A DNA stretch of 64,000 nt. Origin: Leptospirales bacterium (GTDB taxonomy: Bacteria; Spirochaetota; Leptospiria; Leptospirales; Leptonemataceae). The stretch lies in NCBI GenBank assembly GCA_019694655.1, contig JAIBBN010000001.1, positions 372,001 through 436,000 on the forward strand. Direction: 5' to 3'. The position numbers and the translations under genes were made by a program. The number at the start of each line of letters is the position of its first letter. The stretch's first letter is position 1. Positions 4,118-12,976 of the stretch are shown one piece after another. The notes below the pieces were generated by a model. The model was given only the letters and a program-made list of their open reading frames with translations, made no database searches and had not been told where the DNA came from.

Positions 4118-5020
4118 TCAAGCGGGCTTCTTCTTACGCGGGCTCGGCGCGCGAGCTTTTTCGATTTTCCTTTCCACGCTGCGCACCAGTTCCTTGCCGT
4201 CCTGTTCTACGCGGCGCGCAAGGTCAGCACGTTCGCCGCGATAGATTTCAAAGCAAAGGGCCCAGAGGGTTCCGCCCACAGCGCCAGCTACCACGCTCCA
4301 GACAAAGCCCAGATAGAGCGTCGCGGTTAGAAAGACCTGGTCCAGCGAAAAGGGATCCAGCCAGAGCACTGTTGCCAGCGGTAGCCAGCCCAGTCCCAGC
4401 GCCGCCATGCCCATCAAGATGAAGGCCAGGGTCTTCAGCGTTCGCCCGCTGGTCAGCAAGTAGGATTGTTTCAGTGCAGCGCGAAGGTTGAGGCGTTCTT
4501 CCAGAATATAAGCCGGCGCAAATACCATCCGCGCCAGCAGCCACAGAAAAAGCGCAAAACCCAGGGCCAGGCGCAGCTGCATAATCGCGCCCTTGAGCGC
4601 TGGCAGATCCTCCCAGTCCAATGCCGCCTGAAACAATGTGAGGTAGGTAAGGTAGTAGCAGAAGACCCATAGCAGCAGCCAGAGATAGGCGCGCCAGCCG
4701 AAGATCGTCAGACGCAGCCGAAAGCGTTCGTGCCGCGCCAGCTGAAGAAACATCCGCGCCAGAAGGCCAAGGGCCAGCGCCGTTACCGGCAGCGCCAGCA
4801 GGGTCAAGAGCACCTCCTGCGAATAGCGTTCGTACGCCAGTTGCAGAGTTGCCTGCAGGCTCAGAAAATAGGCGCCTGCTACCACGAGACCCATGGCCGC
4901 CGCGGCGCTCAGGGCGTAGCCAGAGTTGCCCAGCAAGATACGCCACGCCTCAATTACATAGTTGAAGAGAACGCGCGGCGGCAGCGGGAAACTCTCCAGA
5001 TGAAATCGCCAGGAGCGCAT
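4118..5020 (-). CDS. Polytopic membrane protein of unknown function
   Basis: 300 residues with about six hydrophobic membrane-spanning stretches and a strongly basic cytoplasmic tail ending in a cluster of Lys/Pro (RKKKPA). I recognise no catalytic motif. A segment after the fourth span (LRAALKQSYLLTSGR) resembles the amphipathic turn seen in several DUF-type bacterial membrane proteins, which is not enough to assign a family. It sits alone on the minus strand between mltF-like and lgt-like genes, with 9 bases to the former, so it is transcribed toward it. Function not inferred. Confidence 0.7.
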   Translation of the reverse strand: MRSWRFHLESFPLPPRVLFNYVIEAWRILLGNSGYALSAAAAMGLVVAGAYFLSLQATLQLAYERYSQEVLLTLLALPVTALALGLLARMFLQLARHERFRLRLTIFGWRAYLWLLLWVFCYYLTYLTLFQAALDWEDLPALKGAIMQLRLALGFALFLWLLARMVFAPAYILEERLNLRAALKQSYLLTSGRTLKTLAFILMGMAALGLGWLPLATVLWLDPFSLDQVFLTATLYLGFVWSVVAGAVGGTLWALCFEIYRGERADLARRVEQDGKELVRSVERKIEKARAPSPRKKKPA

Positions 5021-5105
5021 CGGAGAATCAGGCGCTGCCAGTCGGGAGCCGTCAATCGGATTGCGCAGGGCATGTGGCCTTAGCCTGTTGCCAGGCGGAG
5101 GCCAG

Positions 5106-5906
5106 ATGGAGCAAAGCGTAGCTCATTTTCCGGTGATGCTGGGCCTGGGCCCGTTGCGCGTTCATCCGCACTTCCTCTTTGAGATGCTGGCCTATCTGCT
5201 GGGCTTTCGCTACTACCTGAGCCTGCGTCGTAAGACTGTGGATGCGGTTGATCCGCAGGTGCGGCTCTGGACTCTGGTGGGCGCCGCATCGGGCGCACTA
5301 CTGGGTTCGCGCCTGCTGGCGGCGCTTGAGCATCTGGATTGGTTCTCTTTTTCCTGGCATTCGCTGTGGCTGTTGTACTCCACCAAGACCATCGTCGGCG
5401 GATTGCTGGGGGGCTGGATCGGCGTCGAACTCTGCAAGCGCTGGATTGGCGAGCGGCGTTCAACTGGAGATATCTACGTGCGGCCGCTGATAGCGGCGAT
5501 AGCCATCGGTCGCGTGGGATGCTTTCTGACTGGCGTAAGCGATGCCACAACTGGCCTGCCAACCGATTCGATCTTTGGCCTTGATCAAGGCGACGGCCTG
5601 CGCCGTCATCCGGCGGCGCTTTATGAAATCCTGTTTTTGGCCGCGCTCTGGCTGTGCTTTGTTGCTCTGGAGCATCCATCGATCGGCAACATCGCCGACG
5701 CCTGGCCTGCTGGCCGTCGCTTCCAGTACTTTCTGTTCGCCTATCTCAGCTTTCGATTGCTGATCGATTTCTTGAAGCCGCGTTATGAGCTTGCTCTGGG
5801 TCTGAGCGCCATTCAATGGGCGTCGCTGGCCGGGCTGCTTTACTATTCTGGCTTCTGGCTTGCTCGAAGTTTGCAGCCGCCAACTGGTAAATTAACCCAA
5901 AACTAA
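5106..5906 (+). CDS. Prolipoprotein diacylglyceryl transferase-like membrane protein (Lgt family)
   Basis: 266 residues from the ATG at 5106, chosen because a purine-rich ribosome-binding site (GGCGGAGG) precedes it; the frame is open upstream to a TTG at 5061. Lgt-type features are seen: an early HPHFLFEML span, KTIVGGLLGG (Lgt has a similar GGxxGG segment), IGRVGCFLTG and RRHPAALYE. Lgt adds diacylglycerol to the lipobox cysteine of prolipoproteins. The usual strictly conserved Lgt signature is only partly kept (IGRVGCFLTGVSDATTG instead of the usual glycine-arginine-asparagine pattern), so this may be a divergent paralogue with another lipid or sugar substrate. The many lipoproteins in this window would need an Lgt. 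Confidence 0.7.
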   Translation: MEQSVAHFPVMLGLGPLRVHPHFLFEMLAYLLGFRYYLSLRRKTVDAVDPQVRLWTLVGAASGALLGSRLLAALEHLDWFSFSWHSLWLLYSTKTIVGGLLGGWIGVELCKRWIGERRSTGDIYVRPLIAAIAIGRVGCFLTGVSDATTGLPTDSIFGLDQGDGLRRHPAALYEILFLAALWLCFVALEHPSIGNIADAWPAGRRFQYFLFAYLSFRLLIDFLKPRYELALGLSAIQWASLAGLLYYSGFWLARSLQPPTGKLTQN

Positions 5907-5995
5907 CCTTTTCACTTTGCAAACTGCTTCATGGCGCGGAGGGCGCTTGCGTCTTATGACTGCAGAGATCCGCGTTCCGGCGCCGGGGAGTGTTG

Positions 5996-8728
5996 ATGTT
6001 TGAGCTGTGGGAAGGAGCTGCCAGGAGCAGGCAGCGCAAGAGCATTGTATTTGCTGTAACGAGCCTCGCTGTGGGCGCCCTGGTCGCTTGCAGCTCGCCT
6101 GAGGGCGGCGCCGATCGCTTGCTTTTTGGCGCCACCATTACCGACAACATCTCGCCTGCCGTCAGTTGCGCCTCGGAGATTGCCGTTACGCCGACGATGG
6201 TTGATTTAATTGAGGACGGCGACGTCAATCGCTCCTACAATACGGTTGATCCCTACTTTACTGACGCCGATACCGACGGCGGCGTGGCCTGGGGCCTGCG
6301 CTCCTCCGAATTTTGTATTTATCCGATGCTGGCCTTCACCGGCACGGTGACTGTTCCAATCAGCACCAATGGCAGCCTGGCCGGCCGAACAAGTATTGCC
6401 TCAACCTTTCCCGTTGCCTCCAATCCGCTGCCCGCCTCTTTGAGTTTCACCGGCGACGGCGTGACTGGCCACGGCACGGCTGCGCGGCAGTGTTTTCGCG
6501 TTACACGCGTGGACGACGGCATTCGCAATCCGGTAGAGTCGGCGCTGGTTGTCTCGCTGGGGGCGATCACCAGCGGCGATGACAATGCCGTCTATACCGG
6601 CAAAAATCCCTGTGATGTGAATATTTCGATGGAAGACGACGAGGGCCCCGGCGTCCGCGTTTCCAACATTTCACGCATCATGGAAGAACCGGGCGGAACT
6701 GGCTTTTCTAACGCCAGCTTTTCGGTGCGGCTGCGCACGGCGCCCACATCCAATGTAACCATTCCGATCAACGATATCTACGATGCTACCAATGCCGGCC
6801 ATCGCGAGGGAACAGCGGGTCCAGCGTCCCTGACCTTCACCAATGCCAATTTTGCAACGCCACAAGCCGTAACCATCAATTCCGCGGATGACCTGGAGGT
6901 GGACGGCACCAAAACCTATACAGTTGAAGTACAAACGACCAGCAGCGCCGACTCCCAGTACAACGGCATCAAGCCGCGCAATGTGGTAGTAATCAATAAT
7001 GACAAGAGCGTCCCCGGCTACACCTACACGCTGTGGGATACAAGCACCGGCAATGCCACGGGCAGCGTCACCGGCTTTGCCACCGACGAGCAGAATAACT
7101 TTGGAACCAACTACAGCAGCTTCCGTATCAAGTTGCGCAGCAAGCCATCGTCCAACGTGACGCTGAACTTTGCCACCTCGAAGGCAAGCGTCAGCACCAT
7201 TCAAACGCCGACGCTGACCTTTACGCCCTCGAACTGGAATGTCGACCAGTGGGTGTTGGTCAACGGCAAGTCGGACAGCGCCAACGGCGGTAATCAGGAC
7301 TATGACGTCAGTTTCACCGTGACCACCACCGATCCCACCTACACGGTAGAGGCGCGGCCCTCTTTCCGCATACGCTCCTGCGACAATGACGTGGCTAACC
7401 TGATTCAGCCCTGTAACTTCTCCGGTTCGCCGATGGGCACGGCTGGCGAGCGGCTGAGCGGAGCTGAGCCTTCAGCGACCAACTATATCTGGCTGATTAC
7501 ACAGGCCAGTCCGGGATCGGCAGTTACTGTGCCGCTGAGCAGCACAGATACCACCGAGGGTACTGTTCCGGCCAGCGTGACGATTGATAGCTCGAACTAC
7601 AATACGATGGGCGCCAACGCCAACCGCATCGCCCTCACGCACGTTGACGATACGCTGCTTGATGGCCCGGTAAACTGGACAGTGACCACTGGACTTTCCG
7701 GCGGCGGCCTCAGTTTTGATCCGCTCGATGTTTTTGCAACGACCACCGACAACGAACAGTACTACTATATCGATGTCTCCGGCAGCACTAACGAAAGCGA
7801 CACGGTCACGGCTACCATTTCCATCTGCCTGGGCGCTACCAACGCCGACAACGTGCAGATCAATGCGGCCTGCAGCGGCGATGAGTGCGGCTCGGTATCG
7901 CCGGCCAACGTGACCTTTACGCCGGGTCAGGTGATCACTGCCGGTACGCCCAGCAATGCGGCCTGTGCCAGCGATCCCAATCGCCTGACCTTCACCGTGC
8001 ATGGCGCCGATGATGCCTTTGCCGACGGCACGCAGACTTTTACTGTGAATCTTTCTTTGACCACGACAGATTCGACTTACAGCGGACATCCGCCGTCTAA
8101 CCAGACAATCAGCAATGCCGATAACGAAAGTCCAGGCAAGGCGGTCTTTGTGCCCGGCATTTCCTTTGTGGGCGAGATGACTGCCGCCGGCGTTGGCGGG
8201 GCCGATAACTACTGCACCACCAACAAGCCCGCGTATGCTCCGGCTGGAACCTACAAGGCGCTGATTGTCAGCGATAGCGCTACCAACCGACGGATGGCCA
8301 CCACCACCGGTACGGACGCCACCGGTCAGGTAGGCTGGGTGCTGACGCCCAACTATTACTACTACCGATGCACCGGCTCAGGAACCAGTTGTGATGATGA
8401 GCACCAGCACTTGTTCATCGCCAATTCAGCTGGACTGATCCCCTTCCCAATGAGCCGTGATTTTACCGGTAATGCTGCCGATCAATTCTGGACTGGCATG
8501 AATGTCAACATGACCGCCGCCACGCAGACGATGACGCCGGCCAAGGTTGACGTCTCCGATCCAGACTACCGCGACAATTGTGCTGGCTGGACCTACCAGA
8601 ACGGGCCAACCAATCCCTTCCCGGCCTACTACGGCCAGACCTGGCAGAGTGACGGCTCCTCAGGTGTGAACAGCAATACTAATGTTGCCTGTACCACTTC
8701 TCGGAAGTTGATCTGCGTGCAACAGTAA
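5996..8728 (+). CDS. Large surface lipoprotein with Calx-beta-like repeats and C-terminal DUF1554 domain
   Basis: 910 residues from the ATG at 5996, preceded by GGGGAG; an in-frame GTG lies 6 bases upstream. The signal peptide ends in LVAC (C32), a lipobox. The body has several repeats of the pattern Thr-Phe-Thr-Pro ... VDGTKTYTV ... NNDxS, which look like Calx-beta/cadherin-like beta-sandwich repeats (about four or five copies between 120 and 700). The last ~190 residues, from FVPGISFVGEM to the end, carry DUF1554 features: conserved Cys, a QFWTGM stretch and a C-terminal KLICVQQ. DUF1554 is typical of leptospiral lipoproteins. A role as a surface adhesin or binding protein is inferred. A stem-loop follows the stop codon directly. 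Confidence 0.85.
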   Translation: MFELWEGAARSRQRKSIVFAVTSLAVGALVACSSPEGGADRLLFGATITDNISPAVSCASEIAVTPTMVDLIEDGDVNRSYNTVDPYFTDADTDGGVAWGLRSSEFCIYPMLAFTGTVTVPISTNGSLAGRTSIASTFPVASNPLPASLSFTGDGVTGHGTAARQCFRVTRVDDGIRNPVESALVVSLGAITSGDDNAVYTGKNPCDVNISMEDDEGPGVRVSNISRIMEEPGGTGFSNASFSVRLRTAPTSNVTIPINDIYDATNAGHREGTAGPASLTFTNANFATPQAVTINSADDLEVDGTKTYTVEVQTTSSADSQYNGIKPRNVVVINNDKSVPGYTYTLWDTSTGNATGSVTGFATDEQNNFGTNYSSFRIKLRSKPSSNVTLNFATSKASVSTIQTPTLTFTPSNWNVDQWVLVNGKSDSANGGNQDYDVSFTVTTTDPTYTVEARPSFRIRSCDNDVANLIQPCNFSGSPMGTAGERLSGAEPSATNYIWLITQASPGSAVTVPLSSTDTTEGTVPASVTIDSSNYNTMGANANRIALTHVDDTLLDGPVNWTVTTGLSGGGLSFDPLDVFATTTDNEQYYYIDVSGSTNESDTVTATISICLGATNADNVQINAACSGDECGSVSPANVTFTPGQVITAGTPSNAACASDPNRLTFTVHGADDAFADGTQTFTVNLSLTTTDSTYSGHPPSNQTISNADNESPGKAVFVPGISFVGEMTAAGVGGADNYCTTNKPAYAPAGTYKALIVSDSATNRRMATTTGTDATGQVGWVLTPNYYYYRCTGSGTSCDDEHQHLFIANSAGLIPFPMSRDFTGNAADQFWTGMNVNMTAATQTMTPAKVDVSDPDYRDNCAGWTYQNGPTNPFPAYYGQTWQSDGSSGVNSNTNVACTTSRKLICVQQ

Positions 8729-8796: not shown

Positions 8797-9261
8797 ATGA
8801 ACCTGAGGCGCATGGTGCTGATAGCGGCGATAGCCGCAGCGGCTTTGATAGCCTTGCTTCTGTTTGGGCCGCTGGCGGCGTACTGGACTGCTTTGCAGAT
8901 CAGCCGTCAACAGTATGCCCATCTCGACGATCTGTCCCAGCCAGCGCCTCCTCCTCCTCTGGATCGTCTGCCGCTGGGCGAAACGCTGCGCATTCCCCTG
9001 GCTGACGGCGCCCACGCCATTCAAACCCAGGTGCAGCTGGGCTATGCTCCCAACGCGCCGGCATTCAAGGCCGAGTTACAAAGGCGCATCCCGCAGATGC
9101 GCAACATCATTGTGCTGATCATAAGCAGTAAACGAGTGGAGCAGGTCCAGGGCGTCGAACAGCGTCTAGAGTTGCAGACCGAAATCAAAGCCAGCCTGAA
9201 TCATATCCTTGAGCGCGGCCAGATTGAGGATGTCTGGCTACAGAATTTTCTCATGTTGTAG
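8797..9261 (+). CDS. fliL: FliL-like flagellar basal body-associated protein
   Basis: 154 residues: one N-terminal membrane span (about 7-29), a Pro-rich linker (SQPAPPPPLD), then a periplasmic domain. Its end matches FliL: an R-x-x-I-x-x-I-I-S-S-K stretch, a helix (LQTEIKASLNHIL) and the closing IEDVWLQNFL strand. FliL surrounds the stator units of the flagellar motor and affects torque, which fits a spirochaete with periplasmic flagella. It is not next to other flagellar genes here, so it may be a second copy outside the main flagellar operon. Starts at ATG 8797, 68 bases after the lipoprotein stop. Confidence 0.75.
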   Translation: MNLRRMVLIAAIAAAALIALLLFGPLAAYWTALQISRQQYAHLDDLSQPAPPPPLDRLPLGETLRIPLADGAHAIQTQVQLGYAPNAPAFKAELQRRIPQMRNIIVLIISSKRVEQVQGVEQRLELQTEIKASLNHILERGQIEDVWLQNFLML

Positions 9262-9282: not shown

Positions 9283-9729
9283 ATGAGCGATCAGAACCCA
9301 TTTGAAAGCGCAAAGACATCCGCTTTGCCTCCGGCTGCGGCGGAGAAGCGCTCGCAAAATGCGCGCATACTCCTATGGAACTTTGGACTGCTGCTCTCCT
9401 GGCCGTTGCTGTTTCACTTTGTGCTGCTTGGCGGCGGCTATGCGATCGGTCAGGCGCTCAATCCCCACTTCCTGCAGGATGGCGGCATCTTCGAGGGCCC
9501 GATGGTCGGAGCAGTCTACTTTCTGGCGCTGGCCCCGGCCCTTGCGTCGCTGGGCCAGGCAATCTGGAATGTGCTGCGCTATGTGCGCAGCGTACGCGCC
9601 GCCGATGGCGAAACGCGTCCCATGTATCTGCTCAGCGCAGCAATCATTCTGGTCGTTGGCGCGCCGGTTTGCGCGGGAAGCGGTCTGGCCGGGTTCTTGC
9701 TCATCTACAGTATCAGTTCCAATCAATAA
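9283..9729 (+). CDS. Small membrane protein, unknown function
   Basis: 148 residues with a hydrophilic N-terminus (about 1-25) and three predicted spans (about 29-52, 67-88 and 112-141). No known motif is visible. It begins 21 bases after the fliL-like gene and ends 6 bases before the radical SAM gene, so the three are probably co-transcribed. Its job may be linked to either neighbour, but nothing in the sequence decides this. Confidence 0.7.
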   Translation: MSDQNPFESAKTSALPPAAAEKRSQNARILLWNFGLLLSWPLLFHFVLLGGGYAIGQALNPHFLQDGGIFEGPMVGAVYFLALAPALASLGQAIWNVLRYVRSVRAADGETRPMYLLSAAIILVVGAPVCAGSGLAGFLLIYSISSNQ

Positions 9730-9735
9730 CTACGG

Positions 9736-11166
9736 ATGCCGACGCGCAGTTACACCTACTACGATTTTACGCTCAGTCTCTGCGCCAGCTGCTTGCGTCG
9801 GGTCGATGCGAAAATCATTATCGAAGAGGGCGGCGTCTTCATGCTCAAACGTTGTCCACAGCACGGACCGGAGCGCGTCCTCCTCTCAACGGACGCCGAA
9901 TACTATCGATTGTGCCGTGATGTTCGCAAGCCAGGTGAAACGCCGCTGCAATTCAATACTAACACGCATTATGGCTGCCCCTATGACTGCGGACTCTGTC
10001 CGGACCACGAACAGCATTCCTGTCTGACAGTCTTAGAGGTCACCGATCGCTGCAATCTCAGTTGCCCGCTCTGCTACAGCGCCTCCAGCCCGCGCGCCGG
10101 AAGGCATCGCAGCCTGGCTGAAATCGACGCCATGCTTGATGGCATCGAAGCCAACGAAGGCCGCGCTGATGTTGTGCAGATCTCCGGCGGCGAGCCGACG
10201 ATGCATCCGCATTTCTTTGAGATCCTGCGACGCGCCAGGCGACGTTCCATCCGCCATTTGATGCTGAATACCAACGGCCTGCGCATCGCCCGGCGTCGCG
10301 ATTTTGCCCGGCAACTGGCGGAATTTCAGCCTGGATTCGAAGTCTATCTTCAATTTGACTCGCTGGAGAGCGACGCGCTGCGCCGCTTGCGGGGCCTGGA
10401 CCTCGCCGATCTGCGACGCGCTGCCATCGATCGACTGAATGAAGCCGATTTGAGTACAACGCTGGTCGTTGCGCTGCAGCGCGGCGTAAATTTGCACCAG
10501 ATTGGCGAGATCCTGGAATTTGCGCGTCAGCAACCCTGCGTGCGCGGCGTCACGTTTCAACCGGTTCAGTTTGCCGGCCGTGTTCCGGCTGATCTTGATG
10601 GCGCAGCGCAACGCCTGACCCTCGCCGAAGTACGCCAGGAAATCCTGAAGCAGTCTTCCATTTTCAGCCCCGCGGACCTCATTCCTACGCCTTGCAATCC
10701 CGATTCTCTGGCGATGGCCTACGCGCTTAAGATGGACCAGCATTTATTGCCGCTTTCACGCTTTGCCGATCCCCGGTCGCTTTTTGCTCAGGCCGGCGCC
10801 ACCATCGTCTTTGAACAGAATGAAGCGTTGCGCGAAAATGCGCTGAAAGAAATGCGCGAGCTGGCCGGGCGCGTATTCAGTCTGGGCGCCAGCGCCGAAG
10901 GCGCCGCCGGCGATTTGAACCAGCTGCTCTGCTGCTTGCCCGCGATTCGCGCCCCAGGACTCAGCTACAAGAATATCTTTCGCGTCATCATCATGCAGTT
11001 TCTGGATGCACACAGCTTCGATGTGCGCGCCGTCAAGCGCTCCTGCGTGCACATGATACAGCCCGATGGCCGCATGATTCCCTTCGATACCTTCAATCTG
11101 CTTTACCGCGATGCGCTCGCCGCGCAGAGGCTGGCGCCGCTGCGCGAACTGGCTAGCCAGGCTTGA
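9736..11166 (+). CDS. Radical SAM protein of the MJ0619/Tes type (tetraether-lipid-synthase-like)
   Basis: 476 residues with three cysteine groups. An N-terminal zinc- or cluster-like set has C16, C19, C40 and H43. A second set is CPYDCGLC (81-88) plus C96. The canonical radical SAM motif CNLSCPLC is at 106-113, followed by GGEPT (151-155). A C-terminal CVHMIQPDGR motif (from C437) is close to the end. This layout matches the archaeal MJ0619/Tes group. Tes joins two phytanyl chains to make membrane-spanning tetraether lipids, while MJ0619 was earlier reported as a pterin methylase. Bacterial relatives are candidates for spanning-lipid synthesis. The substrate here is therefore open. It is the last gene of a three-gene run and faces glnK. 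Confidence 0.8.
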   Translation: MPTRSYTYYDFTLSLCASCLRRVDAKIIIEEGGVFMLKRCPQHGPERVLLSTDAEYYRLCRDVRKPGETPLQFNTNTHYGCPYDCGLCPDHEQHSCLTVLEVTDRCNLSCPLCYSASSPRAGRHRSLAEIDAMLDGIEANEGRADVVQISGGEPTMHPHFFEILRRARRRSIRHLMLNTNGLRIARRRDFARQLAEFQPGFEVYLQFDSLESDALRRLRGLDLADLRRAAIDRLNEADLSTTLVVALQRGVNLHQIGEILEFARQQPCVRGVTFQPVQFAGRVPADLDGAAQRLTLAEVRQEILKQSSIFSPADLIPTPCNPDSLAMAYALKMDQHLLPLSRFADPRSLFAQAGATIVFEQNEALRENALKEMRELAGRVFSLGASAEGAAGDLNQLLCCLPAIRAPGLSYKNIFRVIIMQFLDAHSFDVRAVKRSCVHMIQPDGRMIPFDTFNLLYRDALAAQRLAPLRELASQA

Positions 11167-11185: not shown

Positions 11186-11533
11186 CTAGATTGCATCATG
11201 GCTGGCCACGCCGTCGCTGATCCGGATGCACTGCTCCAGCGGAACGACGAAGATTTTTCCGTCGCCCACCTGGCCGCCATCATCGCCGCGCGCCCCGGCC
11301 ATGATGCCGTCGATGGCAGTCTGCACAAAGCTATCGTTTACTGCGATCTGGATCTCGATTTTGTTTATTAGAGTGGAGTCAAGTTCCTGTCCGCGGAAAA
11401 TCTTGACCTGACCCTTCTGACGACCATAGCCGCTGGCATCCAGCACGGTCAGCCGATGGATCTCTCGTTTCTGCAACTCTCGTTTGACCGCTTCCAGACG
11501 ATGCGGTTGAATCAAAGCAATGATCAATTTCAT
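11186..11533 (-). CDS. glnK: PII nitrogen regulatory protein (GlnK/GlnB family) without Tyr51
   Basis: 115 residues from the ATG at 11533, chosen because GGAGG lies 8 bases upstream; an in-frame start further up is less likely. It aligns along its length with PII: MKLIIALIQP start, GYGRQKG before the T-loop and GDGKIF in the B-loop. PII senses ATP/ADP and 2-oxoglutarate and gates the ammonium transporter. Position 46 is Phe and position 51, the uridylylated Tyr in enteric PII, is Leu. Position 49, phosphorylated in cyanobacteria, is Gln. The B-loop has a 3-residue insertion (ARGDDGGQ). It follows amt by 21 bases, the classic amt-glnK pair. Confidence 0.92.
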   Translation of the reverse strand: MKLIIALIQPHRLEAVKRELQKREIHRLTVLDASGYGRQKGQVKIFRGQELDSTLINKIEIQIAVNDSFVQTAIDGIMAGARGDDGGQVGDGKIFVVPLEQCIRISDGVASHDAI

Positions 11534-11554
11534 AGTCGCTTCCTCCGGCAAAGA

Positions 11555-12934
11555 TCAGCGGAAGGTGAAGCTGACTTCGCCATGCTGGGTCAGATCCAAT
11601 CCAAGGGTTTCCTCTTTCTTGCTGACGCGCAGACCGATGGTTCGATCGACCAGAAAGCCAAGAATCAGAGTGCCAACGGCGCAAAAGAGGACCGCCACGC
11701 CCGCGCCCTGCAATTGCAGCAGGAATTGCGTGGCATCGCCGCCGGTGAAAAGTCCGAGGTGCGCCGTACCAACGCTGGCAAACAAGCCGGTGCAGAGTGC
11801 GCCGGTGAGTCCGCCCATTCCATGCACGCCAAAGACGTCCAGTGAATCGTCGTAGCCAAGTATGCTTTTCAAATAGACGGAGAGATAGCAGATCAGGGCG
11901 GCAATGGCGCCGATCAAGATCGCACTGGCAACGCTGACATGTCCGGCCGCGGGCGTGATGGCCACCAGCCCGGCCACCATGCCCGAGGCGAGGCCCAGAC
12001 CGGTAGGTTTTCCGCGATGCATCCATTCGGCGGCCATCCAGATCAACGCGGCCATTGCCGCGGCAACCTGCGTGGTGGTGAAGGCAAGTCCAGCGCGCAG
12101 CATGAAGTCGTCAGCCGATGCAATAGCGCTGCCCGCGTTGAAGCCAAACCAGCCAACCCAGAGCAGGGCGGCGCCAAGCAGCGTTTGGAAGAGCGAACCG
12201 GGTCGGATGGCGTCCTCCGGATAGCCGATGCGCTTCTTCAAGAAAACCAGCGCCAGCGCCAGCGCGGATATTCCGGCCGAGATATGAACGACAGTGCCGC
12301 CGGCAAAGTCCAGGACGCCAGCCTTGAACAGCCATCCGTCGCTGGCCCATACCATGTGCGCCAGAGGATTGTAGATCAGAATGGCCCAGAGCAATGCAAA
12401 GACCATGAAACCGGAGAACTTCACTCGTTCCACGATCGCTCCGGTGATCAGCGCTGGCGTAATGATGGCAAACTTTCCCTGAAACATAACGAACAGCAGC
12501 TCCGGTACGCCGCTGGGATGCACGCGGTCCCATGGAATGTTGCCCAGGGCAAAGCCGCCGGAACTCCAGCCCAGCAATCCGGCGTGAGATTGGCCGAAGG
12601 CCATATTGTAGCCGACCAGCACCCACTCCACGCCAATCACCGCGATACAGGCCAGGCTCAAGATAATGGTGTTCAGCATATTTTTTTGACGCACCATGCC
12701 GCCGTAGAAGAGCGCCAGGCCCGGCGCCATCAAGAGCACAAAAGCCGAAGAGACCAGCATCCACGCCGTTCGACCGGAGTCGATATGCGCCGCAGCATCG
12801 CCAGGCGGCGGAGACTGCAGCGCCGCGCCGGTCTCTGGCAAAGCGCTCTGCGCTGCCAGAGGCAATGCAAAGCATAGAGCAGCTGCTCCTGCCATCAGGG
12901 CCGGCAGCAGGCCAAATCCTTTTCTTCCGTACAT
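11555..12934 (-). CDS. amt: Ammonium transporter (Amt family)
   Basis: 459 residues from the ATG at 12934, preceded by AGGGGGAAGGA. A signal-peptide-like start (LPLAAQSALP) is followed by 11 expected spans. Amt landmarks are present: the FYGGMVRQKN segment, WVLVGYNMAFG, a FQGKFAIITPALITGA block, the twin-His region with DFAGGTVVHISAG, and FGVHGMGGLTGAL near the end. Amt conducts ammonium across the inner membrane and is blocked by GlnK when nitrogen is plentiful. It lies upstream of glnK on the same strand and 42 bases downstream of the sensor gene. Confidence 0.95.
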   Translation of the reverse strand: MYGRKGFGLLPALMAGAAALCFALPLAAQSALPETGAALQSPPPGDAAAHIDSGRTAWMLVSSAFVLLMAPGLALFYGGMVRQKNMLNTIILSLACIAVIGVEWVLVGYNMAFGQSHAGLLGWSSGGFALGNIPWDRVHPSGVPELLFVMFQGKFAIITPALITGAIVERVKFSGFMVFALLWAILIYNPLAHMVWASDGWLFKAGVLDFAGGTVVHISAGISALALALVFLKKRIGYPEDAIRPGSLFQTLLGAALLWVGWFGFNAGSAIASADDFMLRAGLAFTTTQVAAAMAALIWMAAEWMHRGKPTGLGLASGMVAGLVAITPAAGHVSVASAILIGAIAALICYLSVYLKSILGYDDSLDVFGVHGMGGLTGALCTGLFASVGTAHLGLFTGGDATQFLLQLQGAGVAVLFCAVGTLILGFLVDRTIGLRVSKKEETLGLDLTQHGEVSFTFR

Positions 12935-12976
12935 TCCTTCCCCCTTCAATTTGCAGCCTTACTGCGTCTGACCGGC

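Follow-up and report, generated by a model that had tools for sequence, protein, structure and literature searches.

A radical SAM protein related to archaeal tetraether synthase and its linkage with an Lgt paralogue and a small cysteine-ended membrane protein in bacteria

A spirochaete genome encodes a radical SAM protein, here named TesX, and we judge the chances to be about even that it is the radical SAM member of a membrane system built from three components. The other two components are LgtX, a paralogue of prolipoprotein diacylglyceryl transferase (Lgt), and a small membrane protein ending in a cysteine motif. The three-part cassette probably serves to modify either membrane lipids or a lipid anchor. 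The support was read from the sequences, and comprises the homology of TesX and LgtX, their linkage and co-occurrence, the cysteine motif, and a charge bias in the small protein; from the same material we infer the topology, substrate, acceptor, chemistry and step order that are proposed below. The genes are listed in Table 1, with positions in the window, which is the whole stretch of 64,000 nucleotides that was analysed. The source genome is a spirochaete as judged by its kin genomes, and among named relatives a Spirochaetia MAG (L020) is nearest.

Table 1. Genes of the tesX locus in the window
Feature	Position	Strand	Remarks
LgtX, divergent prolipoprotein diacylglyceryl transferase paralogue (PF01790)	5061..5906	+	281 aa
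Predicted lipoprotein, signal ending LAVGALVAC, C-terminal DUF1554 domain	5990..8728	+	between LgtX and the rest
FliL-like single-pass protein	8797..9261	+	PF03748, 54.4 bits
Small membrane protein	9283..9729	+	148 aa, three predicted helices, 6 bp before TesX
TesX, Tes/GDGT-MAS-related radical SAM protein	9736..11166	+	476 aa, ATG start

The open reading frame of TesX, as given by an earlier sequence-only reading, is real, and the motifs listed there are exact: C16/C19/C40/H43, CPYDCGLC at 81-88, CNLSCPLC at 106-113, and the C-terminal CVHMIQPDGR, which lies at 437-446. An alignment with 82 relatives of about 56-63% identity shows little or no variation at C437 and at the Cys and His residues of the three N-terminal groups. 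The protein can be divided into a rubredoxin-like Cys/His site, an N-terminal auxiliary Fe-S site, the radical SAM core, and an altered C-terminal auxiliary site. Pfam recognises the HMPTM zinc ribbon, which is named after an old annotation of MJ0619, and the radical SAM domain PF04055. When the PDB was searched with phmmer, residues 11-471 matched MJ0619 (7TOL) with an E-value of 1.8e-64, and the next-best solved relative reached 4.8e-06. The entries 7TOL and 7TOM are structures of MJ0619, the GDGT-macrocyclic archaeol synthase (GDGT-MAS), or tetraether lipid synthase Tes. The AlphaFold2 model of TesX (mean pLDDT 73, pTM 0.81) matches 7TOM with a Z of 37.9 over 400 residues, the next fold being MoaA at 17.9; it is poor at residues 376-409, the C-terminal cluster region (pLDDT 28-48). 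By these comparisons of sequence and modelled fold, the homology of TesX to the archaeal tetraether synthase MJ0619/GDGT-MAS is clear and far above chance, and the earlier assignment to the bacterial Tes/MJ0619 homologues, with the same domain plan, was borne out.

LgtX, which the sequence-only reading left out, is a conserved partner of TesX. In the window it lies four genes upstream on the same strand. It scores 61.7 bits against Pfam PF01790 (cut-off 24.9) and 23.5 bits against the equivalog TIGR00544, far below the cut-off of 118.9. The model of LgtX matches 5AZB, which is E. coli Lgt with bound phosphatidylglycerol, with a Z of 13.3, and the next match is at 7.2. LgtX and Lgt have in common the fold, the GRxG Arg, the RHPxxLYE motif, and the Tyr/Arg pair (Y235/R239); R151, Y228, and R232 of LgtX are the kept counterparts of R143, Y235, and R239 of E. 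coli Lgt. However, LgtX is divergent from Lgt in lacking the His at the H103 position (the His of FHGG), where Val or Met is found, as well as in its equivalog score. These E. coli residues, R143, Y235, R239, and H103, belong to the catalytic site. A canonical Lgt is encoded separately in the same genome (G000:C4:311708), and the four Bacteroidota genomes examined also have a canonical Lgt in addition to LgtX.

The nearest named relatives of TesX are nearly all from Bacteroidota, such as Flavobacterium, Aquimarina, Hymenobacter, Saprospiraceae, and others. Among 80 named loci, LgtX is within 1.2 kb of tesX in 67 and within the fetched stretch in 72, and lgtX and tesX mostly overlap by 8-11 bases. 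An even draw of 247 Bacteroidota species contained clear TesX in 20, and LgtX is present in all 20 of these genomes; LgtX alone was found in one genome. The distribution of TesX in Spirochaetota is patchy: 198 genomes yielded 3 close matches and 4 distant ones, and the 3 genomes with a close match carry both TesX and LgtX. Naive hypergeometric probabilities of this co-occurrence are 1.6e-28 for Bacteroidota and 7.8e-07 for Spirochaetota, both of them too low in view of the relatedness of the genomes. Even in two genomes where the genes are on separate contigs or far apart (G240 and G100), TesX and LgtX are both present. The spirochaete copy L016 nests inside the Bacteroidota part of the tree, and its placement suggests gene transfer. 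A separate case is L129 of G223 (4653-5498), the sole LgtX in the Bacteroidota draw whose genome has no TesX; no small Cys-ended ORF lies near it. A phage or virus origin of TesX was rejected, as no viral relative was present in IMG/VR. A defence system was also rejected, PADLOC having given only weak generic viperin (radical SAM) matches.

The neighbours of TesX had been said to settle nothing, which was wrong: the small membrane protein encoded just before it is a conserved partner. Across the loci these proteins have 54-148 residues, and in most cases the small ORF follows tesX immediately, overlapping it by 4 bases or leaving a gap of a few bases. A near-constant, Gly-rich motif with a Cys closes the last helix a few residues before the end, for example LVGLGIC-G or LVGFSAC-L, and is looser than the standard lipobox, with Ile or Val at -1. 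An ORF with this motif was found directly 3' of tesX in 64 of the 80 loci, whereas the other parts of these loci give an expectation of 0.0014 per slot; this count is descriptive, the pattern having been drawn from the loci later counted. A few of the small proteins (L035, L037, and L043) do not have the motif. Additionally, the scan pattern misses the copies of the window (GAPVC), L127, L128, L136, and L137, which were recognised by eye. The same scan gave no such ORF in the vicinity of the unlinked genes of G240, G100, and G223. In several flavobacteria (L053, L067, L083, L078, L094, and L082), two small membrane ORFs are located in tandem 3' of tesX, one of them sometimes without the Cys.

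In the window the small gene is upstream of tesX, unlike its usual downstream place. The last helix of its product ends IILVVGAPVC-AGSG, with the Cys 19 residues from the C-terminus. By BLAST the window protein matches the sister protein poorly (E 0.018), and its assignment to the same family is a putative one, made by size, helices, motif, and position and not by alignment. For the small proteins the net charge is +2.5 over the 18 residues preceding the last helix and +0.05 in the tail past the Cys. According to the positive-inside rule, this bias predicts that the Cys is at the outer end of the last helix. This is the side where Lgt acts on lipobox cysteines, and the Cys would be the likeliest acceptor for LgtX.

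More divergent cassettes were also found. In two divergent members within the Bacteroidota draw (L127 4486-8088 and L128 3435-6941), tesX is followed in a row by genes for an ICMT/PEMT-family methyltransferase and a DUF4395 protein, then by lgtX and the small membrane protein gene, and the small gene is coupled to lgtX, not tesX. The added methyltransferase supports a lipid theme. In plasmids of Mycobacterium branderi and M. avium and in a Nonomuraea record, an Lgt-family gene adjoins a gene for a Tes-like radical SAM protein; between the two, M. branderi encodes a pair of small membrane proteins that end GGLCTG and VGVCTG. The Actinomycetota radical SAM protein (L142, L143, and L144) is without the N-terminal cluster cysteines and keeps the Tes-type C-terminal ones.

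In the mechanism proposed for the three components, of which the step order and exact product are guesses, cytoplasmic TesX would draw a lipid chain into a tunnel like that of GDGT-MAS. By means of a 5'-deoxyadenosyl radical it would abstract hydrogen from an unactivated carbon, and the radical-bearing carbon would be coupled to sulfur or another chain. For GDGT-MAS, phospholipid binding and a cluster-bound intermediate with a C-S bond are known (PMC9433317). LgtX, as a membrane enzyme that probably binds phosphatidylglycerol, would work at the membrane's outer face, passing a diacylglyceryl or related group most likely to the lipobox-like Cys of the small protein. The product may be a lipid whose chain is modified or cross-linked, or the small protein carrying such a lipid as its anchor. 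Several findings count against the three-component reading: the altered and poorly modelled C-terminal cluster region of TesX, so that the lipid pocket and cluster are putative; the lack of the H103-position His in LgtX; the loose or missing Cys motif; and the split locus of the window. A more specific form of the mechanism, in which LgtX puts diacylglyceryl on the Cys of the small protein and TesX joins the chain of this lipid end to end with another lipid to give a cross-linked or membrane-spanning anchor, is distinctly unlikely in our estimate. If true, the cross-linked anchor would be a new lipid modification in Bacteroidota, some Spirochaetota, and some Actinomycetota.

Alternatively, TesX may couple the tails of two ordinary phospholipids into free membrane-spanning lipids of the iso-diabolic acid or brGDGT type, an explanation that we regard as unlikely but still arguable. 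It agrees with the homology of TesX and the fold match to GDGT-MAS, and has been published as a hypothesis for bacterial Tes homologues (PMC8941075, PMC10087280). Moreover, the Tes pocket accepts ester lipids (PMC9433317), and iso-C15:0, the usual precursor, is a main fatty acid of one cultured Flavobacterium (PMC10025309). However, making free spanning lipids would require neither a dedicated Lgt paralogue nor a Cys-ended membrane protein, and the cluster cysteines of Tes are changed in TesX. When TesX is aligned with MJ0619 (Mj), C16, C19, C40, and H43 correspond to C9, C12, C33, and H36, and the rubredoxin-like CxxC...CxxH is kept. Also kept are the ligands of the N-terminal auxiliary cluster (C81, C85, C88, and H91 for Mj C73, C77, C80, and His), the radical SAM CX3CX2C (C106, C110, and C113), and M420 at the position of the labile Mj M439. 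Mj C455 and C470 are S436 and D451 in TesX, with Ser and Asp/Glu in 82 of 82 relatives; Mj C338 has no aligned Cys, the nearest being C320. C320, C399-C400 (the CCLP motif), C437, and C268 are invariant cysteines new to the TesX group. A ligand role for Mj C338, C455, and C470 is suggested by their conservation in Tes and TrsS, and the text of PMC9433317 names only M439 as a ligand of the C-terminal cluster. From the alignment, a changed ligand set is likely for this cluster in TesX. Mj Y459, which is strictly conserved in archaeal Tes, is M440 in TesX and Ile in 81 of 82 relatives, and Y459 variants of MjTes remain active (PMC9433317). Compared with Tes, TesX also has a shorter insertion ahead of the C-terminal domain, and is bacterial and linked to LgtX and the small membrane protein. 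Strict membership in Tes was rejected on the altered residues and on the score against NCBIfam NF045702 (275.7 bits, cut-off 450).

Ether bonds made by the PlsA/Ger route are disfavoured as well, since no match to PF09989 was found in the source genome (G000, 95.85% complete), with Thermotoga maritima positive as control. The bacterial Mss/Ger enzymes of membrane-spanning and ether lipids share with TesX the supposed chemistry, a radical SAM coupling of lipid tails. They differ in that no PF09989 gene was found in the TesX genome and that the Mss/Ger literature searched does not describe the cassette. No report of free spanning lipids was found for Flavobacterium, and the lipid study at hand did not target them. 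The earlier suggestion that this bacterium makes membrane-spanning or ether-linked lipids is thus left unsupported: TesX appears to lie outside the Tes clade (represented by one archaeal Tes) and scores below its cut-off, the cluster cysteines are lost, and no PF09989 gene was found.

Another explanation regards the small membrane protein as the direct substrate of TesX, in the manner of a RiPP: TesX would first modify the C-terminal part, at the Cys or the glycines for instance, and LgtX would then lipidate or anchor the protein. The close coupling of the small ORF to the coding sequence of tesX, often by the 4-base overlap, would fit such a role, as would the invariant Cys and glycines, the tandem small ORFs of some flavobacteria, and the two copies in M. 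branderi. We consider this unlikely as well: the domain plan of TesX is that of Tes and not of SPASM or peptide-recognition (RRE) proteins, the predicted topology puts the Cys outside, and the small gene of the two divergent cassettes is coupled to lgtX instead.

It is very unlikely, in our view, that TesX is an enzyme of the TrsS type, the radical SAM partner of a methyltransferase, with a non-lipid function and recruited to the locus. TrsS (NF045646), a radical SAM (seleno)protein, belongs to the same superfamily branch and is the best NCBIfam match of TesX, at 322 bits. However, the cut-off of 490 bits is missed, and the spirochaete TrsS-locus proteins L012 and L013, from the neighbouring phylum sample, reach 650 and 639 bits. 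The C455/C470-type cluster cysteines are common to MJ0619 and TrsS and absent from TesX. TrsS membership was rejected on this score and these missing cysteines. The neighbours are also different, with LgtX in place of an adjoining methyltransferase; the eight neighbours of TesX in the window include no methyltransferase or AMP-ligase, unlike the TrsS loci L012-L014. In a maximum-likelihood tree, the TesX group forms its own clade (98/99, or 89/89 with the two divergent members), and MJ0619 groups with TrsS and haloarchaeal proteins (100/96), apart from TesX. This tree has long branches and a single bona fide Tes, its archaeal sample being MJ0619 and the haloarchaeal plasmid homologues.

A methyltransferase as the next gene, in line with a TrsS-type role, is found for the Tes homologues of haloarchaeal plasmids (L139, L140, and L141) and Mycolicibacterium (L138), and no LgtX was present in their fetched stretches. 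The haloarchaeal homologues lack the N-terminal cluster cysteines and may be a different enzyme; Halobacteria have Tes homologues yet no GDGTs (Zeng et al.). The existence of methyltransferase-linked homologues without LgtX implies that the term Tes homologue spans several systems. A pterin methylase, as once proposed for MJ0619 and surviving in the Pfam name HMPTM zinc ribbon, is almost certainly the wrong description of TesX: the annotation, repeated in the sequence-only reading, is outdated, Lloyd et al. 2022 having withdrawn it for MJ0619 itself, where pterin methylation was not corroborated and a hydrophobic pocket and lipid activity showed a tetraether synthase that couples lipid chains (PMC9433317).

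The homology class of TesX is already known. A set of 456 bacterial Tes homologues and a brGDGT hypothesis for them were published in 2022 (PMC8941075), and this function was still unconfirmed in 2025 (PMC11868695). By homology, TesX would count among the bacterial Tes homologues of Zeng et al. 2022, a mixed group with at least TrsS-like, methyltransferase-linked, and LgtX-linked kinds. The three-part cassette, spread across at least three bacterial phyla, is apparently undescribed. No description of it was found in the literature searched, subscription papers being outside the scope, and none of the curated families scored corresponds to it. Bacterial Tes homologues, in their hundreds, serve to predict the makers of membrane-spanning lipids, and such predictions feed the arguments on brGDGT climate proxies and the lipid divide. 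The present case places a large, mostly aerobic and mesophilic group of homologues in another system, one that includes an Lgt paralogue and a small membrane protein, so counting its members as tetraether makers is unsafe. The cassette may also reveal a new lipid or lipoprotein modification, and its presence in cultivable flavobacteria makes the function directly testable.

At the locus of the window, two unrelated genes part LgtX from the small protein and TesX. The predicted lipoprotein is not conserved at the loci of relatives, and its membership in the system is doubtful. The same holds for the FliL-like protein, also not conserved in relatives; its gene lies between those of LgtX and the small protein and is not part of a flagellar operon. 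Promoter and terminator scans at the locus gave background levels, with no bearing on the operon question. Convergent with TesX, a PII-type protein is encoded beside an AmtB-type ammonium transporter on the minus strand (11186-12949), as read from the sequence.
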